From contig JAJPHL010000011.1 of the NCBI GenBank assembly GCA_021325275.1, positions 233,314 to 297,313 of the forward strand: DNA of 64,000 nucleotides, written 5' to 3'. The notes beneath the pieces were generated by a model that did not search any database, was not told where the DNA came from, and worked only from the letters and a program-made list of their open reading frames with translations. Shown here one piece after another: positions 14,214-59,709 of this stretch. Source of the DNA: Terriglobia bacterium. GTDB lineage: Bacteria > Acidobacteriota > Terriglobia > JAJPHL01. How positions within the stretch are numbered: position 1 is the first letter of the stretch; each line of letters opens with the position of its first letter. The translations under genes and the position numbers were made by a program.

Positions 14214-15232
14214 ATGGCGGGTTTGATCTCGCGCAAACGTGCCGCGGCGGTTTCCGGCGTCAAATCGCGCTGCGGCATGGCGAGCATCTCGTATCCCACC
14301 ATGAATTTTCGCACTGTCGCCGACCGCAAAAGCGGCGGATAGTAGTGCGCGTGAAAATGCCACTTCGTCCGCGCTAACTGATGCAATCCCATCGTGTACG
14401 GGAACGGTGTGCCGAACAGCGCGTCGTAGCGTCGCGTGATTTCCAGCATGATGCCGGCGAGATCGCCGCGCTCGTTCTCGCCGAACGACTCAAGATCCGC
14501 CACGTGTCGCCGCGCGATCACCAGGATCTCGAACGGCCACACGGCCCAATACGGCACGAGCGCCAAGAAACCCGTGTTTTCGCAAACGATGCGCTCGCGC
14601 CGGCGTGCTTCCAGTGCGGCGTACTCGCACAACACACAAGTCGAGCGATTCTCAAACGCGGCGAGTTCCTTCACCGCTTCGTTCGGCAACTCGGACGTAG
14701 CCCAGATTTGCCCATGCGGATGCGGATTGCTGCATCCCATCATTTCGCCGCGATTCTCGAAGATTTGCACCCAGCGGACGAAGTCGCGCGCGCGCAAATC
14801 GGTGTACTGCGACGCCCACGTGTCGACCACGCCGCGCACCGCGTCGGCGGACATGCGGGAAATCGTCAGGTCGTGGCGCGGTGAGAAGCAAACCACGCGG
14901 CAAATGCCGCGCTCCGGCTGTGATTGCAGCAACTCATGCTCAAAGGGTTCGCCGGCGCCGGCTTCCGGCCGGAGAGCTGCAAAATCATTGTCGAAGACAA
15001 ACGTTCCCGTGTAGGCGGAATTCCGCGCGCCGCCCGCCCGGCTGTTGCCGGGACACAAGTAGCACGCCGGATCATACGATTGCGCGGCGGCGGCCGTGAT
15101 TTTCTCGACCTGTCCGCTCCACGGCCGTTGATCGCGGCCCGGCGACACCAGTACCCATTCGCGGGTCAGCGGATTGAATCGGCGATGAGACGACACGCGT
15201 TCCAGAATATCTTGCCCACTAGAGTGTGGCAA
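14210..15232 (-). CDS. galT: Galactose-1-phosphate uridylyltransferase
   Basis: GalT exchanges UMP between UDP-glucose and galactose 1-phosphate in the Leloir pathway. The 340-residue protein has the expected length, the N-terminal [20 protein letters not shown] motif, the zinc-binding CYLCPGN, and the active-site NPHPHGQIW (about residue 170), in which the second His of HPH is the UMP-carrying nucleophile. A further conserved HFHAHYYPP lies near residue 300. The downstream acyl-CoA ligase overlaps it by 4 bp (ATGA). This is an unusual pairing, and no galK or galE is adjacent, although an epimerase gene occurs at 32149-33093. Confidence 0.93.
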
Positions 15233-44111: not shown

Positions 44112-45854
44112 ATGGAAAACAAAGACATCGCGCGAATCCTCTCGCAGACCGGCGATCTTTTGGAAATTGCCGGCGAAGATGGATTCCGCATCCGCAGCTA
44201 TCGCAACGCCGCGCAATCGGTGGAAACGTGGACCGAGCGAATCGCCGACGTGGTCGCTGAGCCGGACAAGAAAACCGCCGACAAGAAACTGATCGAGATC
44301 CCCGGCGTCGGCAAGTCGATGACCGGACACTTGCGCGAGATTGTCGCGCGCGGATCGCTGGTTCCCCGCGACGAAGTACTGAAGAAATTCCCGCCCACCA
44401 TTCTCGACCTCCTGCAAATCCGCGATCTCGGCGCCAAACGTATCGCGCTGATCTGGAGCGCGTATCACGCCGGATCGGTGGACGAAGTGGAGAAGCTCGC
44501 GCAGGAAGGAAAGATTCGCGAACTGCCGCGGATGGGAGAAAAGCTCGAGCAGAATTTGCTGAAGGCGATCGCCATTTGGCGAAATAGCGCGGGACGCTAT
44601 CGCATCGACGTGGCGGACAACGCCGCTTCGAAGCTGCGCGACTATCTAAAATCCGCGGACAAACACGTCCGCGTGACGATCGCGGGAAGTTTGCGCCGCG
44701 GCAAAGAAACCATCGGCGATCTCGACTTGCTCGTAACCGGGGGCGATCCCGGCAAGATGATCGAGCATCTGCTGAAGTATCCCGAGATTGTCGGCGAGGT
44801 GGCGCGCGGCGAAAACAAATGCAGCATTCGCATCGGTCTCAACATGCACGTTGACGTGCGCTTCCTCAAGCCCGATGAGTACGGCTCGGCGATGCAATAC
44901 TTCACAGGATCGAAGGAGCACGGCGTGGCATTGCGCCAACGGGCGCTGCGCATGGGCTACACGCTCAGCGAATACGGCTTGTTTCGCTTGAAGGATGAGT
45001 CGCGCGCCGCCGGAAAAACGGAAGAGGAGATCTACCAGACGCTCGGCCTGGATATGATCCCGCCGGAGTTGCGCGAAAACTCCGGCGAGATCGACGCCGC
45101 CGAAGAGCATCGCTTGCCGAAACTGATTGAACCCGGCGATCTCCGCGGCGACGTGCACATGCACACCACCGCCACCGACGGCCGCGCCTCGATTCTCGAA
45201 ATGGCGCAAGCGGCGCAGGCGCGGGGCCTGGAATACATCGCCATTACCGATCACTCCAAGGCGCAAGCGATGAATTCAGGACTCGACGAAAAGGCCATCG
45301 TCGCGCAGATCGCCGAAATTCGGGAGATCGAAAAGCAAATGCCCGAGGGATTCCGCATTTTCGCCGGTTGCGAAGTGGATATCTTAAAGGATGGCGCGCT
45401 CGATCTCGACGACGATGCCCTGGCGCAGCTCGACGTAGTGATCGGAAGCATTCATTCGCACATGAATCTCGAACCGGAAGAACAAACCGACCGCCTGCTG
45501 CGCGTCTGCGAGAATCGCTATTTGCGGATTCTCGGCCATCCCACAGGACGGCAGTTGACGCGCCGCGATCCGTATCCGTTCGACTTCGGCCGCGTGCTGG
45601 CCGCCGTGGCCAAGAGGGGAATTCACATGGAGATCAACGCGTCGCCCGAACGGCTGGACCTGCGCGACGTGCAGGCGCGAATGTGCAAGGAAAAAGGCGT
45701 GAAGCTGGTGATCAACACGGACGCGCATCATCCAACCCATTTGGAAAACGCGCGCTTCGGCGTGACGGTGGCGCGTCGCGCCTGGCTGGAAAAGAAAGAC
45801 GTGCTGAACACCTTGCCGGCGTCGAAGTTTTTGCACGCCCTGCACCGGAAATAA
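44112..45854 (+). CDS. polX: DNA polymerase X with PHP exonuclease domain
   Basis: The 580-residue protein has an N-terminal HhH region (NAAQSVETWTERIADVVAEP, IPGVGKSMTGHLREIV) and a Pol X nucleotidyltransferase core with GSLRRGKETIGDLDLLV (about 196-212). The C-terminal PHP domain carries metal ligands in DVHMHTTATDG, AITDHSKAQAM, GSIHSHMN and NTDAHHP. Bacterial PolX proteins fill gaps in base-excision repair and have a 3'-5' exonuclease in the PHP part. The ATG at 44112 fits the family start; the longer in-frame stretch back to 43770 is antisense to the MFP gene and is rejected. Confidence 0.93.
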   Translation: MENKDIARILSQTGDLLEIAGEDGFRIRSYRNAAQSVETWTERIADVVAEPDKKTADKKLIEIPGVGKSMTGHLREIVARGSLVPRDEVLKKFPPTILDLLQIRDLGAKRIALIWSAYHAGSVDEVEKLAQEGKIRELPRMGEKLEQNLLKAIAIWRNSAGRYRIDVADNAASKLRDYLKSADKHVRVTIAGSLRRGKETIGDLDLLVTGGDPGKMIEHLLKYPEIVGEVARGENKCSIRIGLNMHVDVRFLKPDEYGSAMQYFTGSKEHGVALRQRALRMGYTLSEYGLFRLKDESRAAGKTEEEIYQTLGLDMIPPELRENSGEIDAAEEHRLPKLIEPGDLRGDVHMHTTATDGRASILEMAQAAQARGLEYIAITDHSKAQAMNSGLDEKAIVAQIAEIREIEKQMPEGFRIFAGCEVDILKDGALDLDDDALAQLDVVIGSIHSHMNLEPEEQTDRLLRVCENRYLRILGHPTGRQLTRRDPYPFDFGRVLAAVAKRGIHMEINASPERLDLRDVQARMCKEKGVKLVINTDAHHPTHLENARFGVTVARRAWLEKKDVLNTLPASKFLHALHRK

Positions 45855-46277
45855 GGATCGCCGTTCCCCGAAAAGCCTCAGACGGTCGCGGCCATCGGGA
45901 AAGTATACGCATCCCCGTGGAATTCAATATCCACAGCGGTGAGCCGACGTCAGGTCGATACCGGAATTGATGATTGGATCGACGTAAATGGTCCACCATC
46001 CAAGTGGGCTCAGCCGACGCTGGCGTCCTGGACTTGAGCGGCAAGGCAAACCGGCCGGAGTTTACCGGCGAATCTCTGGGGCAGTGGGCGCGAGGGCATT
46101 CCACAAGTTGGTTGCAACCACAGTCCTTCTCGATGATCCTCACGGATCGCTACTCGTCCAATCACCCGTTCTTGCGTATCTCTGATTGGTCTGGCAGCAA
46201 GGTTGGGGCAAGCTCTCCCGACAGGTTTCGGATGTTCGTCAAGCAATCGCGGACGTCGTGGTCCTTGTGCGGCGCGG
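45855..46277. other. Intergenic region between polX and the TIR gene
   Basis: These 423 bases separate two convergent genes. Open frames exist on both strands, for example 45712-46143 on the minus strand, but they show no recognisable domain or good start context. I see no tRNA, no repeat matching the attachment-site sequence at 54905-54949, and no strong hairpin. If an island end lies here, I could not find its second attachment site. Confidence 0.5.
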
Positions 46278-47723
46278 TCACTCCATACTCTCCGATATTT
46301 CCTCTAGAGCAATGGTGGCATTATCCTGGCGGAGCCGTATGGACTGCGTCGAGGCCAGGAACTGGATTGACTGGGGCAGTGCATCAGCGACCAAGCGCGG
46401 GCAGTTGTCGATCAATACGGGGATGACGCGCGTTCCCACTTTATGCGCCTGAACAATTTCCCGGCAAACCCAATTTCCCTGCTCTCGAAGATCCGCTACG
46501 GTTCCCTCGGTAAAAACGACCACCAGGCTACGAGCAGACTCAATCGCCTCTTCCAACATTCTTGGATATTGTTCTCCTGCTCGGACTGACTGGTCGTCGA
46601 AAACGCTCTTCCCGATGGCGGTAAGACCCTTGCCGATCGCACCGGCCAATGGCCAGTCTTCGCGCCGGTAGCTGATGAAGGCGTCTGGTCTGGGCCCAAA
46701 GATGTCTTGATAGATCCGGTTTCGCACCACACAGTTGCCCTTCTCATCCATTTTGATGACGCCCGCAAGGCGGAGTTGCTGGGTTGGGTAATCAGAAAGA
46801 TAGGCTTGGAATCGCACTTGCTCGCCTTTCAGGATCCGATCAAATAATGCCTTCAAGCGAGAGTCCTTGAGCGTCTCGCCGATCGGAGCTAAGTTGCTAG
46901 TGTCCGTTCGCTCGAATTGGCGCTTGACTACGTCAACGTCCTCGTGGGAAGTCGCACCCATGGACGCCAAGTGGCACAAAAAGTACTGCGTAATATACGG
47001 ATGCCCATGGGTCCAGTAGTAAACGCGTTCTGCCAAACTCTCACGTACTTCGGCGAGCCATGGACCCTTTTCCGCCAGTTTAAGAACCTCCTCACGAGTG
47101 AAATCAGGCAGCGTGACCCGATTGCCCGTGTTGAAAGGAGAAACAGCCCGGTCGGCAATCAATTCGTCGGGATTGAAGCAGCCAGAGAGGACGAACGATA
47201 CGCGACTGCCGTCAATATCCCTGGTGTTACGAATGACGCTGTAGAAGTGGTCCGATCCATCAAATTTGATGGCTTGTACTTCATCGAGGACCAGAACAAC
47301 GTCTTTGCGAGAAAATATCGCCAGATTCTTGAGAAAGGAGTGCCATTCGTGGCGGCCCGTGGGTGCCCTTAGCGGCAACGTGTCCGGGACGACGTCGGAA
47401 TGCGCTACTACGTCTGTATAGATCGCGCCGCCGATGAGACGGTACCATTCGTCTGGATGGTCTGGTTTGAAGTCGGAGGCTTTGACGTCGATGATGCAGT
47501 AGCCCTTCAGCGCGGGCAGGTGTTTCAAACGGTTAACGAGACTCGTCTTGCCTTGTTGTCGCGGTTCTGACAAATGAACGAAGTTGCCCCTGCCTAGCAA
47601 GATGGCAACCTCTCGGTCGCATTCGCGGTCAACGTACACATCCCGGTCTCGCTCTCTGAGCGCACCACCATAAACATAGTTGTTCACCTGCGCACGCGCC
47701 GTTCCTTCAACCGATTGGCTCAT
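46278..47723 (-). CDS. NTPase-TIR domain protein
   Basis: The 481-residue protein (from 47723) has an AAA_35/STAND-like NTPase and a C-terminal TIR domain. Walker A is HLSEPRQQGKTSLVNRL (about 49-65) and Walker B is VVLVLDEVQAI (about 142-152). A winged-helix-like stretch includes LPDFTREEVLKLAEK and YYWTHGHPYITQYFL. The TIR domain (about 346-465) opens PDAFISYRREDWPLA and contains VRAGEQYPRMLEEAIESA and NWVCREIVQA, whose Glu (about 422) is the likely catalytic residue of a TIR NADase. The GTG/ATG choice is set by GGGGGGA just upstream. It overlaps the stop of the giant GT/GAF gene by 17 bp. Its role as the effector of that partner is inference. Confidence 0.88.
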   Translation of the reverse strand: MSQSVEGTARAQVNNYVYGGALRERDRDVYVDRECDREVAILLGRGNFVHLSEPRQQGKTSLVNRLKHLPALKGYCIIDVKASDFKPDHPDEWYRLIGGAIYTDVVAHSDVVPDTLPLRAPTGRHEWHSFLKNLAIFSRKDVVLVLDEVQAIKFDGSDHFYSVIRNTRDIDGSRVSFVLSGCFNPDELIADRAVSPFNTGNRVTLPDFTREEVLKLAEKGPWLAEVRESLAERVYYWTHGHPYITQYFLCHLASMGATSHEDVDVVKRQFERTDTSNLAPIGETLKDSRLKALFDRILKGEQVRFQAYLSDYPTQQLRLAGVIKMDEKGNCVVRNRIYQDIFGPRPDAFISYRREDWPLAGAIGKGLTAIGKSVFDDQSVRAGEQYPRMLEEAIESARSLVVVFTEGTVADLREQGNWVCREIVQAHKVGTRVIPVLIDNCPRLVADALPQSIQFLASTQSIRLRQDNATIALEEISESME

Positions 47724-50700
47724 AAGTCCCCCCACCACGTTCCGCCCTACATTTGTCTGCATATATGTAGAGCGAGTCTTCCGCAAAATCCTTACTGACA
47801 ACCTCGGGGTAGGACTTTAAAGCGAATTCGAAGCCTCCTTCGGTTCGGCGCAAAATCGAACGCAGGCGTATCAGATCCATGACGGCCTGTTCCACATTGC
47901 CAGCAGACCATCCCGATCCGCAATGCTTCAGCACTTCAGTATGGATATCGGAGATTCGCTGGAGGTTCGGCTGTCTCGCCATGAGCAGCGAGACTACGAT
48001 CTCCAAGGCCGTCGCTCTTTCCCAGATCACCTTGAGATAGTCCTCGTTCAGGAACTCGACATTGGAAAGGATTCTTTCGAGATCCTTGGCTGCCACTTGA
48101 CGCGGAAAGCCATCCGTCGATTCCTTTCGGTTGAGATCCTCCACCAGACGGCGGCAAATCCGTTGGGTCACGCAAGGGTGGCCACCCGCAAACTCATAAA
48201 TCTGCTGAATCAGATGCGGACCATTTAATAATTCGACCTCGATGAAACGGAAGGAGTCGCCGACGAGCGCTTCGACGGCCTTAAAGTCCAGGGGCGCGAG
48301 CAGAATCTTTTCCCCGAGATTCTTCAGTGGACCCGTTTGCTCGTCCTCCACGGCTAGGCGCAAGAATCGCTCGCCGCTCAGAACAACGCGCAGACTCCCC
48401 TCGTTCACTCTCGCCCGGAGCTTATTAAATAATCGCCATCCCTGGCGGGCGTCCTCCCGAATGAGTTGATCCGGTTCATCCAGCAACAAGACCATTTTGG
48501 GTGGGGGATGAGCCAACAGATCGCCAAGAGTTGCTGGCGCATTTGGCGGAGCAGTCGGATACCATTTCAGGATTTCTTCATCTTGAAAGTCGGACTCCGT
48601 AGTCATCCAGCGAACGTCAGCATATGCTGCGGTGTAACCCTCGTTTGGCAAATCGGTTCGGCCGAGCCGGTCCAAAATGGAAGTCTTCCCGAACATCCGG
48701 CCTCCAATGAGTACGCAGGAACGATCGGAGCAGATCTGTTCCATGATCCCGGCCAACTCCCTGGAACGACCGAAGAACATATAATCGGGCACGCTGCCGT
48801 TGGTGACGAACAACAGCGGGGCGGAGGCTTGGTGAAAGACCAATGACCTGTATTCATTCAATGGATGGGTTGAGGCCAAGATGCGAATCAAGTCGCTTCG
48901 GCTCGTGATCACTAATTCCTGTGCTCCGCTTTTCAGGGCGCTCTTTAACTGCCTAATCTCGTCCGGCAATGGTGCTTCATCCCAGGTGACTACTTGGACC
49001 ACTTGACATGCACTTTGTAGCCTGCCTTCGATCTCGAAAAGCAGGCGGGCCCCCCTGTCGGCATCCAGTCTTCCGTCTTGATGGATGGCAATTAGAATTC
49101 GCCGAACATTCTCGCCGAAGGACGAAGCGGTGAGCACAACGAAGCAGTGCCACTTCGACGCGCCGAGGAACGGGCTCTCTACTGCAAGCCGCGTGGCACT
49201 CACGAGACTACGCACAATCTCTTCGGAAGTAGTTTGAAACTGCTGATGCAAGTTGTTGTCGGCGCGCAGTCGGAACCAAGGCTGCGCCCGGTAGCGTACT
49301 TCTTGCCAAGTTTTCAACTGCGGAAAGCCGGTGAGAACGTCGTAATACACACCAAAGACATACTTGATTTCGGGATTCTTGGCACGTTCCGCGATTCGCC
49401 GGAAAAGTTCCTTATTCGCCCGGACTCCGTATAGTGCGGCCGCCTCCGAATCGTGTTTGGCAGGTTCGCGGTCCAGAAACGCTGACCACACGATGGCCAT
49501 TTGATCGACCAGACCTTCGTCCGTGCGCTGGGAAAACTCGGAGAGAAGTCTCGATGAGGCGTCTACCGGCGCGGAAAGCACGCCCAATTGGCGCAGGATC
49601 TCCCCGACCCGCGCCTCACCGCCCCGGCTGTTGGACACAACCGTAGCAATGACGTTGGCCATCATCGTTACCAGCAGAACATCCTGATCGGTGAAGCGTT
49701 CCTCGGGGTGGTTTGGTGCGGATCGGATATTTTCAACTTTGAGGACACCGATCTTTCGGTCGCCCACGCGTAAAGGAACGCCCAGGAAGGAGTTCGGCTC
49801 ACGGCCTTGCTGACGAGGGTTCTGTGCCCCCTTCCATGCTTTGTGGGCTCGCAGTTCCGCCAGGGTGTCGGCCTTGAAAGATTCCCCTGTCTGGAAGATG
49901 TAACCGGTGACCCCTTCGCCGGGCTTGTAGCTGGCCCGTCGCTCTTTGAGCGGTTTCTGGTAACCCATCGCGGCTTGAATTACCAAGTGGCCGGTCGCTT
50001 CGTCATATAGGTATAGGGAAGAGGCTTCCGCGCCAAGAACATCGGCGATGGTCTCGACGACCTTGTCGACCAACGCGCTCATGTCCTGGCCGCTGGCCAA
50101 TACTTTCGAGAGATCCTCTAAGTTTGTTGTAAACCGCTTAAGCTGCTCCTCGCCGACCTGAGTGTTGAATACGACTGCCGCGATCACACTCGCCATCATT
50201 GTGACCAAGGCGACATCTTGGTCGGTAAACACCTCCCCCGGATGGCTGGCGGATGGGATGATCTCTTCGACCTTCAGAACGCCGATCACTCTTTCTTTCT
50301 CGCTGAAGCGTTCTTTAATTTTCAGTGGAACGCCCAGAAAGGTATCGGGTTCCTTATTCCCCTGCCGATTGTTCTGCTTGCCCTTCCACGTCGGATGTTC
50401 GCGCAATTCTTGCAGACTATTGGCGCGAACATGGCGGCCTTTCTGGAAAATCCAACCCGTGATTCCCTCGCCGGGTTCATACTCGGCTTTTCGTGACACC
50501 AGTTCTTTCTGATATCCAGTCGCTGCCTTGATGACCAACACCCGACGAGCGTCGTCGTAAAGATAAAGGGAGGAGGCTTCTGCGCCGAGCACGCGAGCTG
50601 TGGTTTCTACAACTTCACCAACCAGCGCATTCAAATCCTTGCCGCCAGCCAGCGTGAGCGACAAACGGTCCAAGTCGTCGGTGAGTTTTTGCATGCCGGC

Positions 50701-53700
50701 TACGCCGACTTGAGCGTTGTAGACGACGGTCGCGATTACGTTGGCCATCATGCTGACCAACAACTCATCCTGGGCCGTAAAATAGGACTCGGGATGAGCA
50801 GGTGTTTCTTCGATCTCCTCCACTTTGAGCACGCCAATGACTTTGGGCTGTCGCGTGAAGCGATCCGTGACCTTCAATGGCAAGCCTAAAAACGACTTTG
50901 GTTCCCGTAGTTGCTGCTGAGAGTTGAATTTTCCCTTATGGCTGGGATGGGCATGTAAGGCGCCCAAGTCGTTCGCACGTACGATCTCACCCTTCTGATA
51001 AATCCAGCCGGTAATTCCTTCGCCAGGCAAGTATGTAACCTTCTGCGCCACCAGTGGAGCTTGGTAGCCCGTGGCAGCGCGAATCTCCAAGAGTCCGCGG
51101 CTCTCGTTTAACAAGTACAGCGAGGACGCTCCGGCACTCAGAGTTTCCGCCATCCTCTTGACCACACCTTCAACAAGGCCTTGGATATCTTGGCCGCCGG
51201 CTAGAGCCGACGAGAGTTTGCCCAAGTCATTGCTCAACTTCCGGAATTGCGCGCCGCTAGCCTGAGCATTATGCACGGCCGTTGCGATGATGTTGGCCAT
51301 CATTTCACCCAACAGAAATTCTTCTGCCGTGAATACTAGGCGAGAATCCGGTGGCAGGGGGCGGCGGTCTTCAATCTTGAAGACTCCGATCACTTTTGCA
51401 TCATGCCGGAATCTGTCCGCAATCTTCATGGGATACCCCATGAAGGCTCGCGGCTCCTTGTTGTTTTGGAGTGCTTTGTATTTCCCAGTCCAAGTCTGAA
51501 CGCGGTGGAGCTCATCCAGGCTGTCGGCCTTAAACTTCTCCCCCTTCTCCCATAGCCAACCGGTCGTGCCTTCACCGCGGGCGTACGACGCCTCCGTTGC
51601 CAACAGAGGTGCGTGATACCCGTAAGCCGCGCGGATTTCCAGTCGGTCGGTCTCCTCATTAACCAAGTAAAGGGAGGCGGCGTCGGCCTGCAAGACTTCA
51701 GCCATGGTGGTAGTGACGCTTTGCAGCAGTTGTTCGAAATCGCCGCCACCAACCAGGCTCTCGGCCAATTGCTGCAATTGGCTCACCCGAGATCTCTCGG
51801 CTTCTTCGCGCCGCAGCATTGCTTCCAATGCCGGGGCCGCTTGGGCGGCGACCGTTCGCAGTTCGCTACCGTGTTCTTTCGAGAAGACCCCGGAGATGCC
51901 GCGCTGAATCGTGATTTCGCAGCGGTCACCGCGGTCGCCCCACTCCGCATAAGCACGCAGGTAGCTGGCTCGGGGATCATCACGAACCGCTCCCGAGAAC
52001 TTTTCTTCGACTACGTCCCCATCATATTCAAACCGGCGGTGGTTGGGTAGCTTGAGAGTGACCCTTTCTGCGGAGGTGGCTTCCGCCAGATGCGTGAGGA
52101 CGCTCGTCGCCGATTCCAAGACAGTCCGCGCTTGCGCGAGATTACGGTCTAACTCGAGGACTCGGTCGTGGCGCTGCTGCTGGAAGCGGCGTTCCAAATT
52201 CACGCCGATGGTTGTTGCGACCGCCGTCAGAGCGCCGATCTCAGCTGCGTGAAATTCTCTCTTAGGCGTGGTGGAAAACGCGTCGATTCGGCCCCGAATC
52301 GCCCCGCCGGCGCTGATTGGCACCGTCAGTTGCGAAAGCCATCCGTTTTGCTTGGCGACCCGGCTGCCCAGAAATCCCAACTGGGCCTGCAGAGCGGTTA
52401 TGCCTTTCTCGTCACTTTCCAGATGGAACACATATTGTTGGCTCCAGGTGCGCTCGCTCTGCTCCTCTAGGACTTCTTCGCTTGAAATAACTCCCGCAGG
52501 ACTTCCAACGACCAAGCGCAGGAACTGCGGCTTCGCGTCATCCACGGTCCAGATCAGAAGCCCGTCATAGTCCAGCAATTCTCGGCTGGCATCCGCGATA
52601 TGACGAAGGTACTCCGGCGTGCTGCTGGCGTCGGTGAGTTCGTTCGCGGTCAGGATCATTTGCAGCAGCAACTCGTCGCGGTTCTCTCCTAGTGGATCTG
52701 CATCCGGAAGTTGAGGCCGAGAGCGGCTGGCCCTAATCGCACTTTCGTAAAGCGCAAGGTACTTGGAAGTCGGATGGGCCCAGGACAGATCCAACTTCAT
52801 GTTGCGATTTTGCAAATCTCTCCATTTCGGTCGGTTGCTCCGATACAGAGTGGCTGCTTCTCGGATGGCCTGCCGCAACGCAACAGCGCTAAACTCTTCG
52901 AATACAAATCCTCGACCGACGGGTCGATCCCCTTCTGGCGATTGCCAATCGATCACCGAATCGGCCAGTCCTCCAGTCTTGCGGACTAGCGGTAACGCAC
53001 CGTACCTCATGGCCAGCATTTGTTGGAGCCCGCAAGGTTCTCTGAGTGACGGTTTCAAGATGACGTCGCTTCCCGCAAAAATCTGCCGGGCTAAAGTCTC
53101 ATCGTAGGCAAACCGGACGGCCATCCCATTGGGAAACTTCGCCTCGATGTTGGCAAAAGCCTCACGAAAATGGAAATCTCCCGCTTGGCCCAAGAGGACG
53201 AATTGCGCCTCTTCCGCAGCGAGGAGTGCGGGCAACACTTCCTCCACTAAGCCCAGACCCTTTTCCGCGATCAGCCGGCTGACGATCCCAAACAGCGGGG
53301 TGTCGGGATTTTCCCGAAGGCCTAAGGACTTTTGCAGAAATGCCTTGTTGTCCTTGCGGGCTGCGATGTTCTGGGGCCCAAATTTGCGATGGAGACTGCG
53401 GTCGAGGTACGGGCTATATAAGGTCTCGTCGACTCCGTTGAGGATTCCGACGATTTCTTCGCGCCGGGATGCAAGGGCCGCCCTTAGGTAAGGGGCATAC
53501 TCGCCACTTTGGAGTTCTCGGGCATGTTGCGGGCTGACCGTACTAACTGCGTCGGCGGCAATAATTCCGCGGGCCATGAAATTGATCGTCCGTTCGGACT
53601 CGCCAAGACAAGCGAACACACCGTGGTGGGCGAGACCTGAGACCACGGCAGATCTGCTGCTAAACTGACCAGGAAATCCGGCGTTGTGAATTGTATAAAC

Positions 53701-54207
53701 AAAGGCCAAATGATGGCGTGGGTCGTCCGCGGGAAGATCTCGAAGCCAGAGTGGAAACAATCCGGCAATCCAATCGTGACCGTGAAGCACGTTCGGCAAC
53801 CAACCTTCCGATCTAAAATCCGGATGGCTGATCATTTCCAGAGTCGTGCGTGTAAAGCAAACAAACCTTTCGTAGTCGTCCGTATATCCGTATATATTTT
53901 CGCGGTCGAAATAAAAAGGATCAGAAATTAGATAAACCGGCACTTGCTGCTCCGAATCTTCCTCGATTCGATAGTCGACCCGTTTGATCGCCGCGCGGAG
54001 GCTTGCCGGCCCCATCGGCACCTCGATCTGGGGAATTATGGTTCGTGGCTGTGTCTCAAACCGTAGGCTTCTGTAGTAGGGAATGGCAAGCCGTGCGTCA
54101 CAATTGTCGCGACGCAATTGAAGGCACAACTCCATCACCACGCTTGCTACACCGCTGGTGTTTACAAAAGGAGCAGCCTCCGACGCTACGATGAGTACAT
54201 TCTGCAT
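47707..54207 (-). CDS. Glycogen-synthase-like GT5, multi-GAF, NTPase fusion protein
   Basis: The 2166-residue protein starts at 54207 with GGAG six bases upstream. Residues 1-493 are a GT5/GT1 glycosyltransferase of the GlgA type: LHGHDWIAGLFPLWL, TIHNAGFPGQF, ILNGVDETLYSP, FGIVSRLIAEKGL, REPCGLQQMLAMRYG and KTGGLADSV. The N-terminal nucleotide-sugar motif, normally KTGGL, reads NTSGV. Residues 510-800 contain one or two degenerate GAF-like domains. Residues 809-1529 are four tandem GAF domains. Residues 1533-1803 are unassigned. Residues 1810-2143 are a STAND/AAA_35-like NTPase (Walker A GGRMFGKTSIL, Walker B MVLLLDEPDQL), introduced by VTNGSVPDYMFFGRSREL. No signal peptide or membrane helix is seen. 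It overlaps the NTPase-TIR gene. I know of no described family with this order. Confidence 0.9.
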   Translation of the reverse strand: MQNVLIVASEAAPFVNTSGVASVVMELCLQLRRDNCDARLAIPYYRSLRFETQPRTIIPQIEVPMGPASLRAAIKRVDYRIEEDSEQQVPVYLISDPFYFDRENIYGYTDDYERFVCFTRTTLEMISHPDFRSEGWLPNVLHGHDWIAGLFPLWLRDLPADDPRHHLAFVYTIHNAGFPGQFSSRSAVVSGLAHHGVFACLGESERTINFMARGIIAADAVSTVSPQHARELQSGEYAPYLRAALASRREEIVGILNGVDETLYSPYLDRSLHRKFGPQNIAARKDNKAFLQKSLGLRENPDTPLFGIVSRLIAEKGLGLVEEVLPALLAAEEAQFVLLGQAGDFHFREAFANIEAKFPNGMAVRFAYDETLARQIFAGSDVILKPSLREPCGLQQMLAMRYGALPLVRKTGGLADSVIDWQSPEGDRPVGRGFVFEEFSAVALRQAIREAATLYRSNRPKWRDLQNRNMKLDLSWAHPTSKYLALYESAIRASRSRPQLPDADPLGENRDELLLQMILTANELTDASSTPEYLRHIADASRELLDYDGLLIWTVDDAKPQFLRLVVGSPAGVISSEEVLEEQSERTWSQQYVFHLESDEKGITALQAQLGFLGSRVAKQNGWLSQLTVPISAGGAIRGRIDAFSTTPKREFHAAEIGALTAVATTIGVNLERRFQQQRHDRVLELDRNLAQARTVLESATSVLTHLAEATSAERVTLKLPNHRRFEYDGDVVEEKFSGAVRDDPRASYLRAYAEWGDRGDRCEITIQRGISGVFSKEHGSELRTVAAQAAPALEAMLRREEAERSRVSQLQQLAESLVGGGDFEQLLQSVTTTMAEVLQADAASLYLVNEETDRLEIRAAYGYHAPLLATEASYARGEGTTGWLWEKGEKFKADSLDELHRVQTWTGKYKALQNNKEPRAFMGYPMKIADRFRHDAKVIGVFKIEDRRPLPPDSRLVFTAEEFLLGEMMANIIATAVHNAQASGAQFRKLSNDLGKLSSALAGGQDIQGLVEGVVKRMAETLSAGASSLYLLNESRGLLEIRAATGYQAPLVAQKVTYLPGEGITGWIYQKGEIVRANDLGALHAHPSHKGKFNSQQQLREPKSFLGLPLKVTDRFTRQPKVIGVLKVEEIEETPAHPESYFTAQDELLVSMMANVIATVVYNAQVGVAGMQKLTDDLDRLSLTLAGGKDLNALVGEVVETTARVLGAEASSLYLYDDARRVLVIKAATGYQKELVSRKAEYEPGEGITGWIFQKGRHVRANSLQELREHPTWKGKQNNRQGNKEPDTFLGVPLKIKERFSEKERVIGVLKVEEIIPSASHPGEVFTDQDVALVTMMASVIAAVVFNTQVGEEQLKRFTTNLEDLSKVLASGQDMSALVDKVVETIADVLGAEASSLYLYDEATGHLVIQAAMGYQKPLKERRASYKPGEGVTGYIFQTGESFKADTLAELRAHKAWKGAQNPRQQGREPNSFLGVPLRVGDRKIGVLKVENIRSAPNHPEERFTDQDVLLVTMMANVIATVVSNSRGGEARVGEILRQLGVLSAPVDASSRLLSEFSQRTDEGLVDQMAIVWSAFLDREPAKHDSEAAALYGVRANKELFRRIAERAKNPEIKYVFGVYYDVLTGFPQLKTWQEVRYRAQPWFRLRADNNLHQQFQTTSEEIVRSLVSATRLAVESPFLGASKWHCFVVLTASSFGENVRRILIAIHQDGRLDADRGARLLFEIEGRLQSACQVVQVVTWDEAPLPDEIRQLKSALKSGAQELVITSRSDLIRILASTHPLNEYRSLVFHQASAPLLFVTNGSVPDYMFFGRSRELAGIMEQICSDRSCVLIGGRMFGKTSILDRLGRTDLPNEGYTAAYADVRWMTTESDFQDEEILKWYPTAPPNAPATLGDLLAHPPPKMVLLLDEPDQLIREDARQGWRLFNKLRARVNEGSLRVVLSGERFLRLAVEDEQTGPLKNLGEKILLAPLDFKAVEALVGDSFRFIEVELLNGPHLIQQIYEFAGGHPCVTQRICRRLVEDLNRKESTDGFPRQVAAKDLERILSNVEFLNEDYLKVIWERATALEIVVSLLMARQPNLQRISDIHTEVLKHCGSGWSAGNVEQAVMDLIRLRSILRRTEGGFEFALKSYPEVVSKDFAEDSLYIYADKCRAERGGGTYEPIG
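49621..51783 (-). repeat. Four tandem GAF-domain coding repeats, period about 552 bp
   Basis: Within the giant gene, four consecutive GAF units start near 51780, 51240, 50688 and 50136. The last three intervals are exactly 184 codons (552 bp) apart, and the first unit is 180 codons long. Each has the same landmarks: KLxxDLxxLSxxLAGGxD, (G/E)ASSLYL, a GY, PGEGxTGxI, EPxxFLGxPL, VIGVLKVE and FTxQDxxLVxMMANVIA. The middle two are closest to each other. The pattern shows recent duplication inside the gene. Confidence 0.9.
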
Positions 54208-54581
54208 CGCAATCTCCGATCGAGCACGCTCGGAAGTGTACCATGAGTTGTCGAACACCAGACCTCTTGACCTATGGTCGAGCGTCTCCTTATCTGCGCC
54301 GAAAACAAATCTGCTCCTAAAAGAACATAGTGAACGGGTAGAGAGACTCGATCCCTGGGAGGCGTTCGAAATACGGATCGCGAAGCTCTCGCGCGTATTC
54401 CCGCGACTTCGCGATGCCGTTGTCTTCCAGTTTCAAATTGCGGCTCGCGCTCAGCGCCCGTGACTTGGGGCAAAGGATGCCTCGGCTTGTTCGCTCGCCC
54501 AAGCCATCGCTTGGGACCGGCGGGCGGTTCGGGGAGAACCACATCGCCCGCATCGCCGCCTGTATCTCTATTGAAATGAAA
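54208..54581. other. Region upstream of the giant fusion gene
   Basis: About 370 bp between the giant gene and the tRNA-like sequence. It probably holds the promoter for the two-gene unit, but I see no convincing -35/-10 pair. A small inverted repeat (CCCAAGCCATCGCTTGGG) occurs near 54500-54517. Short open frames here show no recognisable domain. GC content by eye is mixed, higher toward the tRNA-like end. Confidence 0.45.
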
Positions 54582-54664
54582 TGGTGGGCCCGTAAAGGCT
54601 CGAACTCTAGACCTCTACCGTGCCAAACTGCCTGGCAGCGCTGAGGCAGAACGCCAAGCGGCCC
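54582..54664 (-). tRNA. Degenerate tRNA-Leu(CAG)-like sequence
   Basis: On the minus strand these 83 bases end in CGGGCCC-ACCA and include a good T arm (TAGAG-TTCGAGC-CTTTA). A five-pair anticodon stem (TGCCA/TGGCA) encloses the loop GGCAGTT, so the anticodon would be CAG, and an 11-base variable region fits a class II (Leu-type) tRNA. The acceptor 5' strand GGGCCGC pairs at only five of seven positions, the D loop lacks GG and position 33 is not T. It looks like a decayed or element-borne tRNA rather than a working gene. Confidence 0.45.
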
Positions 54665-54904
54665 ATTTGGAGGAGTACCAAATGCAGGACGACATGACTC
54701 CTCTCTCGGCAGATTGCAGGTTCCGCAACGGTTCGAAGCGCTTGCCCTCACCACTGCCTCGGATGCGCGCATTGAGGCACCCGCAGCGGGTTTGGCAGCG
54801 GCCACGCTTTGCGAAGTGGGCCATTAAGTGGGCAGAACTGGCAAGACCCTAGCGGTTTTCGGAGTCCTCACCCCTGTTGTGGTGCGGCTAAGTCTTTGAA
54901 ACTT

Positions 54905-54949
54905 TGGTGAGGCGGGCGGGGATCGAACCCGCGACCACAAGGTTAAAAG
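54905..54949 (-). other. tRNA-Lys 3' half, likely attachment site
   Basis: Read on the minus strand this is CTTTTAACCTTGTGGTCG, then GCGGGTTCGATCCCCGC and CCGCCTC-ACCA. That is the anticodon loop (TTT), 3' anticodon stem, T arm and acceptor 3' strand with CCA of a tRNA-Lys. Upstream of the anticodon loop the sequence no longer resembles a tRNA. Tyrosine integrases commonly recombine at the anticodon loop, leaving exactly such 3' halves at one end of an island. An integrase remnant lies 110 bp away. Confidence 0.8.
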
Positions 54950-55059
54950 CTGAGTGTAACGACAAAAATGCCCACAAAAACGCTATTCAGTGGGCAGGCA
55001 GTGGGCGGAATACGGGAAAACCGTAAGAAATGGCTTCCCTGCTCTTGGTGCGGTAAGCA

Positions 55060-55238
55060 TCAGTTGACAACGGCGTCTACGTTCTGCGGCGCGAGCAAAC
55101 GCTCCGCAATTCGGTCGAGGGGATCCCGCATATCTTCGACGGCTGCATGGGAGTAGTGCAGCGCCATGGTATCCGTTGCGTGGCCGAGAATCAGCTTGCG
55201 GTCACCCAAGTCAACGCCGAGGTCCGCCGCCGTGAGCC
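55060..55238 (-). pseudogene. 3' end of a tyrosine recombinase gene
   Basis: The last 58 codons of the chimeric frame read ADLGVDLGDRKLILGHATDT, then MALHYSHAAVEDMRD and DRIAERLL. The LGH motif and the Y in HYSH are the last two catalytic positions of phage-type tyrosine integrases. The catalytic Arg boxes and everything before are absent. It points toward the tRNA-Lys 3' half 110 bp downstream, the usual int-att arrangement. It is fused in frame to the front part of a sigma-factor gene. Confidence 0.8.
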
Positions 55239-55650
55239 AGATCGACCAGTGGAACCTTTCGCGCGGATCGTCGCGGCTGGGAATCTCCTCTTCGAGGAGT
55301 TCGTAGTCGATGCCGGCGCCGCGCTTTGGCGCGTGACGCGCCTTGAAATGATCGTGAACGACGTTGGCGGCGATCCCTTTCAGGTAGCCATAGAACGCTC
55401 CGTCGTGCTCGGACCGGAAATCCCCCAGCACGCGGATGCGCTTGGAATAGAGCTTGAGGTAAACCTCTTGAGCGAGGTCTTCGGTCAACTGAAACGAAGC
55501 GCTCCAGCGCCGGACGGTATCTCGTACGACGATGAGAATGAACGGATTGAAACGCTCGACAAAGGTATGCCAAGCTTCATGATTCTCGGCCTGGCAACAT
55601 TCCCGAATCAAAGAGTCTACTGGCGGTTGAAATTGGGGGTTCATGCCCAT
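55060..55650 (-). CDS. ECF sigma factor (region 2) fused to integrase tail
   Basis: The first 140 or so residues are a sigma-70 region 2-type protein: IRECCQAENHEAWHTFVERF, LTEDLAQEVYLKLYSK and FYGYLKGIAANVVHDHFK match the core-binding and -10-recognition helices of ECF sigma factors. Region 4, which binds the -35 element, is missing because the frame switches after FHWSIW (about 55238) to an integrase C-terminus. I chose the ATG at 55650; a TTG at 55662 and an ATG at 55644 are alternatives. As it stands it should not be a normal sigma factor. It follows the four-gene paralogue cluster on the same strand and may have been its regulator. Confidence 0.75.
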   Translation of the reverse strand: MGMNPQFQPPVDSLIRECCQAENHEAWHTFVERFNPFILIVVRDTVRRWSASFQLTEDLAQEVYLKLYSKRIRVLGDFRSEHDGAFYGYLKGIAANVVHDHFKARHAPKRGAGIDYELLEEEIPSRDDPRERFHWSIWLTAADLGVDLGDRKLILGHATDTMALHYSHAAVEDMRDPLDRIAERLLAPQNVDAVVN

Positions 55651-55765
55651 TAAGGCCGCCAACTACGATTGGAAAAGGGACAACGCGGATTGAAATATTT
55701 TCGGCCCGGCCAAAAGAACCGAGCGCCAAGAATCGTTGTCCGAGAACGCGGGGATTTGAAACCCT

Positions 55766-57763
55766 CTAGAGGATGTGAACTCCGTTATACGTGCGCGCGA
55801 CCATCACGGGAGTCGCGCCCCAAAAGGTACGCGCAGCCGAAAGGTCGGGCTGCCACGACCCCACGCGACCGGTTTGGAAATCCGCCAATCTCATCGCAAA
55901 AGGCGACGGCCCCGACGTGGACTCCTGAAGAATCGCGGTGCGTACGTCGGGCGTGGCAGCGATCAGCGTTCCGCGGATGTTCGGGAAGCTTTGGACGCGT
56001 CGCGTGGTCAGATCGATCAGGCACGATCCAGGCTGTCTGATGTCGGAAGAACAGAGCGCAAACTTTCCATCCGCCGACACGATCAGGGCGGAACTCATGC
56101 CCGGCTGGTCAGGAATCGTAGCGGGATCGAGTATCAGTTGTTGGTCGCCGATCGTGAGTCCTTGCAATCCAAATGTTGGCGGGTTCGCGTTGAGAACGCG
56201 GTAAAGAATCGCTCGCGTGCGGTTTTCGGTGGCGGGAATCATTTGGAAGGCGAATATGACCGGTACACTCGGGCCAATCTTGCCGGTCTTCACGTCCACG
56301 ATCGCGATCTCGCCATCGGTCGCGCTCGTGGTGCCGAACGAGACAATCAACTTTTCGCCGCTGTGAGAATAGAAAGCCTGCAACGGCCAACGCGGCGCCA
56401 TGGGAATGATCTGCGTGGACCGCCGCTCGGCAATATCGACAAGCACCAGTTCCTGCCCCAGCGTGTTCACCAGGCAAGCCTGCGACCCGCTGGGCGAGAA
56501 CGCGATGCCGGCCAGGAACAGGTAGCCTTCAAAGAGTTTCGGCTTCACGTCCATCTTGATCGGCGATTCGGCGCCGCTGGCGATGTCGTACAGTTTGACA
56601 GTGTCGCGGGCGCTCATCGCCGACTGTAGCAGCGCGTATTTTCCGCTGGTATCGATTTCTAAATGAAAAGGGATTTCACCCGTCAGGCGGCGCAGGACCT
56701 TCAACTGGACCTTGCCCAAGCTCACCTGCGCCGTGGCGTCGTACTGTCCGTAGGCTTTCACGTCGATCGTGAATGTCTTATTGTCGGGGCCGGCCAGAAA
56801 CATGCAATAGCGGTCGTCCGGGGCAGCGGTATTCAATGGCGCGTTGGCGTCGACTACTTCGCCGTCCACCAAGACTTCGCAACGCGTCGCGTTGCGCGTG
56901 CTCCATCCCAATTTGACTAAACGTCCCGAAGGACTGGTCTTCAGATAAACAGTGTTGGAGAGCGAGAGCTCGTAGTATCCCACCCGCGCGCTCAAGGTTT
57001 TCTCCACCACCCGCCGTCCGTCTGAAGCGCTGATGACGGTCAGCAGAAACTCCGTGGCTTGGTTCAGCGCGGGACTCATCACGCCGGCGTCACCGTCGGA
57101 ACAGGTGAAGCAATCGCCGGCACCCTGGCAGTCCCGAGGTTTCCACCGCCCGTCACTGCTGCTCAATTGATAGCTGTAGTTCTTGCCTTCATCGGTGCAT
57201 TTCCACGACAGTCTCACTTTGTCCGGGATGTACAAACTGCCGGGCGTGGCGACAAATGATGCTACCGGAAAACTGCTCCGGAGTTTCTCCAGGTACACCA
57301 CGCCGGTCGTCTTATCGCCGGTCTCGGGAGTCTCCGTGATATCGATCTGAACGCGTCCTTCTTTCGTGCCCACGTGAATGCCGCGCAGCGAGAAGATCAG
57401 CGGATCGCCGGCCATTACGATGAGGCCGCTCGCAGGATCGGGCTTGATCTGCACACCGTTTCCGTCGCGCGAGCGCGACACGCTCCACGCGCCGGAACTG
57501 ATTTTCACCGGTTGAGGGAGTTCTTTGTCGCCGGAGAGAAAGCCGTCGAGGTCCTGTCCAATCGGAAACGAGAGCGAAAGGCTCTTGAAGCGCGTGGTGA
57601 TCGACGGATCGCGGCTGGAAATCACGATTCGCAAGTCGATCGTCCAGGGATTTGCTCCGGTGGGCGAAGCGCGGATCGGATTGGGATCGCTTTGAATCAG
57701 GTATTCAAGCTTCTGGGTTCCACCGGGAGCCGCAACATTGAGCACCACGTTCAGATCAGGCAA
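55766..57763 (-). CDS. Paralogous beta-sandwich/beta-propeller protein 4 of cluster
   Basis: The 665-residue protein starts at a TTG (57763) six bases after a perfect AAGGAGG, overlapping the previous stop by 13 bp. The N-terminal domain (about 15-165) has QSDPNPIRASPTGANPWTID, IGQDLDGFLSGDKELPQPVK and the DPLIFSLRGIHVGTKEGRVQ, DITETPETGDK pattern. Next comes an Ig-like region with DKVRLSWKCTDEGKNYSYQL and GRLVKLGWSTRNATRCEVLV. The C-terminal part (about 370-665) is a beta-propeller (IDTSGKYALLQSAMSA, IAFSPSGSQACLVNTLG). No signal peptide is visible, so it is probably cytoplasmic or exported by an unusual route. It is the most divergent of the paralogues. I do not recognise a function. Confidence 0.75.
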   Translation of the reverse strand: MPDLNVVLNVAAPGGTQKLEYLIQSDPNPIRASPTGANPWTIDLRIVISSRDPSITTRFKSLSLSFPIGQDLDGFLSGDKELPQPVKISSGAWSVSRSRDGNGVQIKPDPASGLIVMAGDPLIFSLRGIHVGTKEGRVQIDITETPETGDKTTGVVYLEKLRSSFPVASFVATPGSLYIPDKVRLSWKCTDEGKNYSYQLSSSDGRWKPRDCQGAGDCFTCSDGDAGVMSPALNQATEFLLTVISASDGRRVVEKTLSARVGYYELSLSNTVYLKTSPSGRLVKLGWSTRNATRCEVLVDGEVVDANAPLNTAAPDDRYCMFLAGPDNKTFTIDVKAYGQYDATAQVSLGKVQLKVLRRLTGEIPFHLEIDTSGKYALLQSAMSARDTVKLYDIASGAESPIKMDVKPKLFEGYLFLAGIAFSPSGSQACLVNTLGQELVLVDIAERRSTQIIPMAPRWPLQAFYSHSGEKLIVSFGTTSATDGEIAIVDVKTGKIGPSVPVIFAFQMIPATENRTRAILYRVLNANPPTFGLQGLTIGDQQLILDPATIPDQPGMSSALIVSADGKFALCSSDIRQPGSCLIDLTTRRVQSFPNIRGTLIAATPDVRTAILQESTSGPSPFAMRLADFQTGRVGSWQPDLSAARTFWGATPVMVARTYNGVHIL

Positions 57764-59709
57764 ACCGGTCCTCCTTGATCGCCGGCCGTCAGTCCCACCG
57801 GCTGGCGTGTTCCTCTCGCCACCGCCAAAACGCCACAAGGAAAGCTCGGCGTAAACACTCTCTCTTTGTCCGTGGCGAGATCGTACACACTGAACCCTTT
57901 TCCGGAGCCGAGCCAGGCAGTGCGCCCGTCCGGAAGAAGCGCCAATCCGGGACCGGCCGACGGCATTTCTTGAATCACCTCGTCACGCTCCAAATCGACG
58001 ATGACACTTCCCGCATGGGGTGTGGCTCCGAGATTTGCGGTGGCACAGGAGACGATCGCGCGCCGGCCGTCCGGCGTGACGAGGATTTGGCCGGGCAAGA
58101 ACCGAATGGGGGCTCTTAGGAAGTGAACCTTGTCGCCATTGCCCGGCGAGGGCGGATTGTCTCCCACATCCACATAACCGAGCGCCCCGGGTCCCTGCCT
58201 CACGGAAAAGTAGACTCGATCTTCACTCAGGCCGCACGAGACGGCAAAGACCTGGGCGTTCCCCGGGATATCCCATTTCCCTCCCTGCGACTTGGCATAA
58301 TTCCAGTAGTAGAGAAAACGGGCCCCACTCAAGATAAAGACTTGGCGCTGCGGCAGGTGCGTCGACAGCACGCCCACCGGACTGCGCAAGCCAAGGTCTC
58401 CGATCATCCGGCGCACGAACGCATGGCTCCTGTTGATCCCGAGAAATTCCGTGTCGCCGGGCTGCGGCAAAAGCGCAAGCGCAGCGGTGCCGCTTTCCGG
58501 AAAGGCATGAACCTGCTTCCGCTGCGCAAGATCTAACACCCTGGCGGGCAAAAGACCGGGCAACACCGGCGAGAGCAACGCGAAGATTCCATCGTCGGAG
58601 ATGCCGGCTCCGCGAAATAATGCCGGTCCTGCCGAAATCGGAACATGGATCGGATCGAGCACCGTGATGGGATCGCCGATTTGCAAGCGATCGCTGCGCG
58701 CGCCATTCAGGGCGTGCGCGACGACCTCCACCTTGTAAGTGCCCTCTTCAAACAACGTAAGAAAGTAACGATCGTTTTCGAGGTAGGTGTCGGCGGGCGC
58801 GTTGTCGTCCACCACTTCGCCGTTGACCAAGACGGAACAGCGCACCGCATTGTGCGCCAGCCAGCCGATCTTCGCGAGGCGGCCGGTGGGCGACAGCGCG
58901 ACATGATGCGTGCGCTCCAATTCCAGCTTGGTCACGTCGACACGCGTGCGCAGCGTGGCCTCGAGGTGGTCGCGACCGCCTTGCGTGTGGATCACGTCCA
59001 AGGAAAACGTGGTTCTCTGACTGATCGCCGGCGATCGGACACCCCGTTCGCCATCGGCCGCCGTCAAGCCGCCGCGGCGCCACGATCTGGAATGCACGCT
59101 GAAACTGCGATTCCGGCCGTCTTCGGTGACTCGCCACTTCAGATCCGTCGTGCCCTTCACATCGGTAATCACGTTCGGTTCGGCGGCAAACGCCGCGACC
59201 GGAAAATTCGACGGGCGTTTCTCCAACTGCACTTCACCCGTCACCCTGCTGCCGTCGCCAGACCTTTCGGTGATCTCCAGGACCACGGTTCCCGGCTTGG
59301 TGTTCACCTTGATGCCGTTGATCGCAAAAAACAAGGGATTGCCTTCGAACGTCAAGTCCACGGCGGGCGCGGCTGGACGGACCAGGACACTGTTGCGATC
59401 GCTGTTCAGCGCGATCGTCCAGTGACCGGGTGAAATCAAAGCAGGCGGCGGCAAAGCAGGATCGCCCGAGAGATGCGCGTCGATGTCCTGCCCGATCGGA
59501 AAGGAAATCGCGATACTCCTGAGAACCACATGGCCGTCCTCGGGTCGAGGATTCGAGATCACCACGCGCAAATCGATGGTTCGTGGATTCCCTCCCGGCG
59601 ACGCGCGAATGGGATCGGGGTTGCTGTCGAAGATATAGCCCAGACGCAACGGGCTATCGTCGGCGGTAACGCCCGGTTCGTTTCGCGCTGAATCATTCAG
59701 ATCAGACAA
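57751..59709 (-). CDS. Paralogous beta-sandwich/beta-propeller protein 3 of cluster
   Basis: The 652-residue protein starts at a TTG (59709) six bases after GGGAGG, overlapping the previous stop by 13 bp. Its N-terminal domain carries IFDSNPDPIRASPGGNPRTI, IGQDIDAHLSGDPALPP, FEGNPLFFAINGIKVN and VLEITERSGDGSR. A second region (RLAKIGWLAHNAVRCSVLVN, DDNAPADTYLENDRYFLTL) is Ig-like. The C-terminal beta-propeller includes VTPDGRRAIVSCATANLG and ALLPDGRTAWLGSGKGFSVY. It is very similar over its whole length to the protein encoded at 59697-61658. Function unknown. No transmembrane segment or signal is seen. Confidence 0.78.
   Translation of the reverse strand: MSDLNDSARNEPGVTADDSPLRLGYIFDSNPDPIRASPGGNPRTIDLRVVISNPRPEDGHVVLRSIAISFPIGQDIDAHLSGDPALPPPALISPGHWTIALNSDRNSVLVRPAAPAVDLTFEGNPLFFAINGIKVNTKPGTVVLEITERSGDGSRVTGEVQLEKRPSNFPVAAFAAEPNVITDVKGTTDLKWRVTEDGRNRSFSVHSRSWRRGGLTAADGERGVRSPAISQRTTFSLDVIHTQGGRDHLEATLRTRVDVTKLELERTHHVALSPTGRLAKIGWLAHNAVRCSVLVNGEVVDDNAPADTYLENDRYFLTLFEEGTYKVEVVAHALNGARSDRLQIGDPITVLDPIHVPISAGPALFRGAGISDDGIFALLSPVLPGLLPARVLDLAQRKQVHAFPESGTAALALLPQPGDTEFLGINRSHAFVRRMIGDLGLRSPVGVLSTHLPQRQVFILSGARFLYYWNYAKSQGGKWDIPGNAQVFAVSCGLSEDRVYFSVRQGPGALGYVDVGDNPPSPGNGDKVHFLRAPIRFLPGQILVTPDGRRAIVSCATANLGATPHAGSVIVDLERDEVIQEMPSAGPGLALLPDGRTAWLGSGKGFSVYDLATDKERVFTPSFPCGVLAVARGTRQPVGLTAGDQGGPVCLI
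57770..57776 (-). promoter_or_regulatory. Strong ribosome binding site fixing a TTG start
   Basis: AAGGAGG on the minus strand, six bases before the TTG at 57763 and inside the end of the previous coding region. It settles the unusual start codon for the 55766-57763 gene. Confidence 0.8.

Follow-up and report, generated by a model that had tools for sequence, protein, structure and literature searches.

The 64,000-nucleotide (nt) stretch of Terriglobia bacterium DNA analyzed here (contig JAJPHL010000011.1 of assembly GCA_021325275.1, positions 233,314 to 297,313), which will be referred to as the window, contains two neighbouring genes whose combination raises the question of what a glycogen-synthase-like domain does next to a putative killer domain. 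The first gene encodes a giant protein in which a GlgA-like GT5 glycosyltransferase, an array of GAF domains and a STAND-like nucleoside triphosphatase (NTPase) are joined, and the second encodes a partner in which a related NTPase precedes a TIR domain. With a probability of about one half, we consider the pair to be one ligand-sensing switch, which would cleave nicotinamide adenine dinucleotide (NAD) through its TIR domain and thereby stop growth or kill the cell.

Two related NTPases encoded side by side

The original prediction, made from the window alone, described two overlapping genes on the minus strand, a giant of 2166 residues composed of GT5, GAF array and NTPase, and a partner carrying a related NTPase. 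Both genes were found as described (Table 1), and domain searches agreed on the composition of the giant, PF01590 giving five stretches in the protein and the array itself comprising four GAF domains. The start of gene 2 is most likely the ATG at 47723, downstream of a G-rich stretch. A longer reading from the TTG at 47801 (P0002, 507 residues, 26 more) was used in some analyses, and residue numbering in the window follows the long readings, P0002 for the partner and P0001 (2183 residues, 17 more) for the giant. The NTPase of the partner matches AAA_35 (PF14516) with 53.8 bits at a cut-off of 27. The module of the window giant scores 13.4 bits with nSTAND1 (PF20703), under the cut-off of 27.1; a match to this family at E ≤ 0.1 was obtained for 19 out of 20 giant-side members scanned (best 2.3e-11), and the protein at locus L097 scores 31.4 bits. 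Profile-profile alignment with hhalign demonstrated that the two NTPases are homologous (probability 99%, E 8.8e-18, 299 columns), as had been predicted. The source genome contains one match each for the NTPase module of the giant and for the partner, and the two adjoin.

Pairing was then evaluated across genomes. Loci were gathered with the NTPase module of the giant or its alignment, their neighbourhoods were taken, and those scoring above 450 bits with a hidden Markov model (HMM) of the giant's NTPase were regarded as core-type, namely the window, L005, L058, L059, L066, L097 and L098; the HMM had been built from five of these seven, L097 and L098 not being among them. An AAA_35-type partner is encoded directly downstream, overlapping by 4–17 nt, in six of the seven core loci, which upholds the prediction that the genes form a paired system. 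In L005, derived from a member of the Anaerolineae, the giant is followed with a 4-nt overlap by P0062, an AAA_35 NTPase with 35% identity to P0002. Since class and architecture are common to L058, L097 and L098, the latter two are not independent of the first, and the three should count once, which leaves four architectures as the basis of the core pairing. In the window, L005, L058, L066, L097 and L098, both proteins retain the Walker A lysine and the Walker B residues DE; most gene-2 proteins have E or A where the first glycine of Walker A would stand. Counted by alignment column, the Walker residues GK and DE are present in all 26 giants that have a C-terminus (P0028 and P0034 lack it and were excluded), although 9 of 29 do not fit a strict Walker A pattern.

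A wider sample consisted of 18 loci, L097 and L098 among them, from 18 of 28 hit genomes (G968, the genome of L058, is another of the 28; the other nine lie outside the count), whereas another genome search with 42 hit genomes contributed loci from G000 and G337 only. A second NTPase gene is adjacent on the same strand in 10 of the 18 (L097–L101, L104, L106 and L111–L113), set off at L099 and L113 by gaps of ~350 and ~720 nt, respectively, and at L102 it lies on the opposite strand. No second NTPase gene was seen at the remaining seven (L103, L105, L107, L108, L109, L110 and L114), several of the 18 contigs being short. Looser relatives are paired too, as shown by GAF-nSTAND1 with an nSTAND2-kinase protein in L100 and by kinase-nSTAND2 in L104. 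At L106 (6615-9929) and L112 (4742-8053), HD-RelA/SpoT-TGS modules resembling alarmone enzymes are fused to nSTAND1, and a second NTPase gene comes after each of them.

Some NTPase loci on plasmids were observed in passing. L062 (1195-10076), on an Azospirillum ramasamyi plasmid, encodes a 2403-residue protein in which a related NTPase is combined with a short match to pPIWI-RE RNaseH, and this gene overlaps an AAA_33 gene by 4 nt. L064 (4847-8511) and L065 (5466-11395), on Sphingobium and Chlorohelix plasmids, contain NTPase gene pairs with 4-nt overlaps.

The TIR domain and its replacements

Among solved structures, the TIR domain is closest to the NAD hydrolases of the SARM1 type (E 1.5e-8). 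The glutamate of GNWVCREIV in the window protein aligns with the SARM1 glutamate in KDWVHKEIV, the catalytic residue of that enzyme. The predicted conflict-type TIR thus retains the residue expected of an NADase. Homologue searches with the partner, in which the best ~8000 candidates were scored, resulted in few proteins, and when giants and partners were matched by the length of their contigs, the window's own P0014 and P0003 were the sole link. The W-x3-E motif is also present in P0004, P0005, P0007 and P0009.

Comparison of the loci demonstrated that the TIR domain is one of several interchangeable effectors. Gene 2 ends in a TIR domain in the window and in a caspase with FSGHG and DACH motifs in L005, L058, L097 and L098; in L066 it ends in a HEPN-like RNLIHP motif, a motif reading for which Pfam and solved-structure searches gave no support. 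The original view of the TIR domain as the effector is corrected by this, in that the L005 partner carries a caspase in its place. The start of gene 1 varies as well. It is GT5-GAF in the window and L005, TIR in L058, L097 and L098, and in L066 a weak DpnII-like match (19.4 bits, cut-off 23). In P0042, ParA, TIR and two GAF domains precede the same NTPase, the ParA and TIR parts matching the PADLOC models PDC-M28B (5.3e-25) and ThsB (8.5e-17), respectively. Just upstream of the TIR-NTPase gene of L058, a 187-residue gene (13714-14277) was noticed that appears SLOG-like by eye and has no Pfam match.

The GT5 domain, its family and its setting

The GT5 domain of the giant passes the TIGR02095 glgA subfamily cut-off (429 bits vs 328), while the equivalog-level GlgA models listed for it all score under their own cut-offs. 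A separate GlgA with its motifs (G000:C15) is present in the source genome; one TGA lies inside the match, and a 487-residue open frame covers the aligned part. This protein, two GlgAs of G347 and 13 of the 44 loci that matched the GT5 part alone in the contig scan described below formed a set of 16 GlgAs for comparison, with residues numbered as in E. coli GlgA on 2qzs. In a tree of these and the GT5 domains of 28 giants, the giants occupy one side of a branch with support 100/99 and split into a clade of 17 including the window (window clade) and a sister clade of 11. The catalytic roles ascribed to the residues compared are those of the GlgA literature.

The two clades have altered different parts of the catalytic site. 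The window domain shows K15N, G17S and D21S in its loop, and throughout its clade K15 and D21 are missing (0/15 each) and G18 is kept in two of 15, with H161, N162, R300, K305, E377, G380 and Q383 retained in 17 of 17. The sister clade mostly keeps the loop (K15 9/11, G18 10/11) and partly loses H161 (6/11 kept), K305 (7/11) and E377 (7/11). All six core residues (K15, G18, H161, R300, K305 and E377) occur together in none of 15 window-clade members, in two of 11 sister-clade members and in 16 of 16 GlgAs. The counts for K15, G17, G18 and D21 do not include P0029 and P0031, in which the K15 stretch is missing, and P0042, having no GT5 domain, enters none of the GT5 counts. With GlgA the domain shares the sequence family and most catalytic residues (H161, R300, K305 and E377); it differs by the altered KTGGL loop, by its fusion to GAF domains and an NTPase, and in not being the ordinary GlgA of its genome. 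It looks like a repurposed module whose job would be to bind a ligand rather than to synthesize glycogen.

A protein search yielded 27 other GT5-GAF proteins with 33–55% identity to the giant and two to five GAF domains, incomplete entries counted. The C-terminal NTPase module was matched at length in 25 of them, P0028 and P0034 lacking most or all of it. The architecture is therefore not due to chance; the family is real but rare. The named relatives P0023, P0024 and P0038 come from Anaerolineae or Anaerolineales. In P0022 the inner GAF domains are 88–89% alike within the protein and at most 62% alike to P0001 among the comparisons listed. Since inner GAF domains are more alike inside some single proteins than to those of the window, the arrays seem to expand within lineages.

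Among 297 genomes of the phylum the giant was found in the source genome itself and in none of the other 296, and likewise in one of 61 relatives and one of 298 genomes of the class of L005, each time the centre genome; few candidates were scored per genome, for which reason absence from the sampled genomes is no proof. A scan of genome contigs gave 45 loci, 44 matching the GT5 part alone and only L005 containing a giant. None of 537 plasmid records covers 80% of the giant, each staying below 60% identity, and the 20 listed as matching it are all annotated glgA. Three scans of viral contigs revealed no relative of the giant.

The surroundings of the pair fit an inserted cassette, judging from its flanks and base composition. 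A tRNA-Lys fragment resembling an attachment site (att) stands 0.7 kb before gene 1, and the guanine-plus-cytosine (GC) content over the pair is 0.55–0.56 compared to 0.58–0.61 in neighbouring steps. The window contains no full tRNA and no full second att copy, a partial match of 16 nt at 24672 being all that was seen, and Rfam gave no match at gathering scores over 45800-56000. The island setting originally proposed is thus supported in part, by the att-like copy and the lower GC content; the missing second copy and an equally low GC content elsewhere, taken up below, limit this support. The tail of the open reading frame (ORF) at 55060..55662 looks integrase-like by eye, a motif reading to which Pfam gave no support. 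The genes around the pair include efflux and polymerase X genes, among others. Farther along, tandem ORFs of ~650–770 residues occupy 57751-63970 on the minus strand, with DNA repeats that are 75–84% alike and ~1.95 kb apart, and the three ORFs scanned there gave no Pfam match.

Table 1: Features of the gene pair and its upstream flank, in window positions.
Feature	Position	Strand	Remarks
Gene 1, GT5-GAF array-NTPase giant, 2166 residues	47707..54207	-	ATG 54207 to TGA 47707; P0014
GlgA-like GT5 glycosyltransferase region	52741..54201	-	TIGR02095 429 bits; PF08323/PF00534; closest solved structure E. coli GlgA 2qzs
Altered KTGGLAD loop, reads NTSGVAS	54142..54162	-	Aligned to 2qzs and 16 GlgA proteins
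Linker	51769..52701	-	Perhaps with one more, weaker GAF-like stretch, whose placement here is presumed
Four tandem GAF domains	49624..51765	-	
Region between GAF array and NTPase	48784..49617	-	No Pfam match
C-terminal STAND-like NTPase	47794..48810	-	Weak nSTAND1 match
Giant NTPase Walker A, GGRMFGKTS	48679-48705	-	
Giant NTPase Walker B, LLLDEPD	48469-48489	-	
Overlap between gene 1 (stop) and gene 2 (start)	47707..47723	-	17 nt
Gene 2, AAA_35 NTPase-TIR, 481 residues	46278..47723	-	Likely start ATG 47723; P0003
AAA_35 STAND-like NTPase of gene 2	46707..47693	-	Walker A EPRQQGKTS at 47541-47567
TIR domain	46323..46679	-	TIR_2 52.9 bits, cut-off 28
Putative catalytic Glu in NWVCREIV	46458-46460	-	
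att-like remnant	54905..54950	-	46 nt identical to the 3' half of the tRNA-Lys(TTT) of this genome
ORF with sigma70 region 2 match	55060..55662	-	Tyrosine-integrase-like end by eye; perhaps fusion or remnant

Candidate mechanism, rival explanations and known systems

As a switch, the pair would work in four steps. The GT5 and GAF domains would bind small ligands, the GT5 domain probably a nucleotide sugar or a glucan, without ordinary glycogen synthesis. Upon binding, the STAND-like NTPase of the giant would exchange its nucleotide and join the partner's AAA_35 NTPase in an assembly, a step we infer because the pairing is conserved and the Walker motifs are kept. TIR domains clustered in this way may become active NADases, as the SARM1-like glutamate suggests. 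The trigger, the least certain part, might be infection or a similar insult. If true, enzymes of core metabolism have supplied the sensor of a switch that destroys NAD. The paired NTPases would then be a platform that exchanges sensors and signal enzymes (GT5-GAF, RelA/SpoT-like, TIR) as well as killers (TIR, caspase, HEPN-like, kinase), and nucleotide sugars would be specific candidate ligands of a defence-like system.

Several observations weigh against this explanation. L059 has the core NTPase, in a gene 1 that carries BNR repeats, and no partner, and only two GT5-GAF loci, the window and L005, have readable neighbours, an NTPase-effector gene lying directly downstream in both. The TIR relative P0010 is devoid of the W-x3-E motif. 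P0022 and P0037, two of 26 testable giants, keep all six GT5 core residues, and the window domain itself may still transfer sugar because H161, R300, K305 and E377 are kept. Low GC content is not unique to the pair, reaching 0.554 at 10–12 kb. Finally, no PADLOC model matched the giant, and the partner weakly matched SAVED_TIR (E 3.7e-5 over 66 residues).

Going beyond the general switch, we tentatively suggest a glycogen synthase turned immune receptor, in which a GT5 domain of altered donor loop and an expanding GAF array would read an ADP-glucose or glucan state disturbed by a phage and the two ATPases, whose ends are exchangeable (TIR, caspase, HEPN), would then execute the cell. Such a receptor would link carbon-storage metabolism to abortive infection.

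A rather doubtful alternative is that the GT5 domain is a working transferase of changed specificity, acting either as an effector that glycosylates a molecule of the invader or the host, or as the maker of a sugar-nucleotide signal for the GAF domains and the partner. The seven residues invariant in the window clade look like kept chemistry, and signal-enzyme-like modules take the place of gene 1's GT5-GAF elsewhere, RelA/SpoT-TGS in L106 and L112 and TIR in L058, L097 and L098. In addition, GT4 domains of comparable systems are taken as effectors by Kaur et al. 2021 (PMC8195603). This explanation may apply above all to the window clade, although K15 and D21 are lost there in 15 of 15, and since the two clades lose different residues, no single chemistry is common to the whole GT5-GAF family. 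For the same reason, making a signal appears less likely than binding one; of the two roles for the giant left side by side in the original prediction, sensing is favoured.

Still less probable is that the pair monitors carbon and nitrogen status and triggers cell death in metabolism or development, with no anti-phage role. The last GAF domain of the giant is nearest, among solved structures, to the GAF domains of the NifA-like Nlh1 and of PtsP, GlgA ancestry suggests ADP-glucose or glycogen as ligand, and no phage record matched the NTPase module of the giant at E ≤ 1e-5. A conflict cassette, however, agrees better with the patchy spread within the phylum, the swapping of effectors, the att-like remnant and the lower GC content. 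That the giant is simply the regulated glycogen synthase of the organism with a TIR gene as chance neighbour, for which the TIGR02095 score would speak, is largely refuted and as a housekeeping role ruled out, as the original prediction had anticipated, because the genome has its own GlgA elsewhere, the family is rare among the genomes sampled, the K15 loop is altered and a partner adjoins in six of seven loci.

Among systems already described or predicted, the closest is a mobile two-gene operon predicted by Kaur et al. 2021 to act against invaders, with an nSTAND2 NTPase in each protein, one of the two STAND modules being inactive, with GT4 or HEPN as its most frequent fusions (PMC8195603). 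Two genes, a STAND-type NTPase in each and variable fusions including a glycosyltransferase or HEPN are shared with the window pair and its relatives. In contrast to that operon, the NTPases here match AAA_35 and weakly nSTAND1 instead of nSTAND2, both keep their Walker motifs with neither eroded, gene 1 carries a GlgA-type GT5 and a GAF array, and gene 2 a TIR domain or a caspase. Membership in nSTAND2 (PF20702) was considered and rejected: matches at E ≤ 0.1 came from four of 20 giant-side members (best 0.0014), the C-terminal module of the window giving none, and the family is not among the 12 listed for 10 gene-2 members. At L100, L104 and L113, which are weaker relatives, one gene scores above the nSTAND2 cut-off.

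GT4-conflict domains (PF20706) likewise join a glycosyltransferase to the STAND modules of conflict systems, but this family matched just two of the 20 members scanned (best E 1.2e-5), and the GT5 domain is nearest to GlgA instead. The models for Thoeris were missed by far, ThcB4 giving E 0.0084 and 15 bits compared to 220. With TIR-STAND proteins and SARM1-like NADases the pair shares an NTPase or scaffold joined to a TIR domain with a catalytic glutamate; here, sensor and TIR are split over two proteins, each with its own NTPase. Conflict modules in general include GAF domains and at least three glycosyltransferase families, according to Kaur et al. 2020 (PMC7159879). A GT5-GAF-STAND system was not seen among the papers listed by text searches of the open-licence literature, subscription papers and most bioRxiv preprints lying beyond those searches. 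Within that scope the original statement that the composition is undescribed stands for GT5-GAF but not for the double-STAND plan with a glycosyltransferase or HEPN, which Kaur et al. 2021 had predicted (PMC8195603). The pair is a variant of this two-gene STAND plan, and its composition, GT5-GAF on one protein and AAA_35-TIR on the other, is new.

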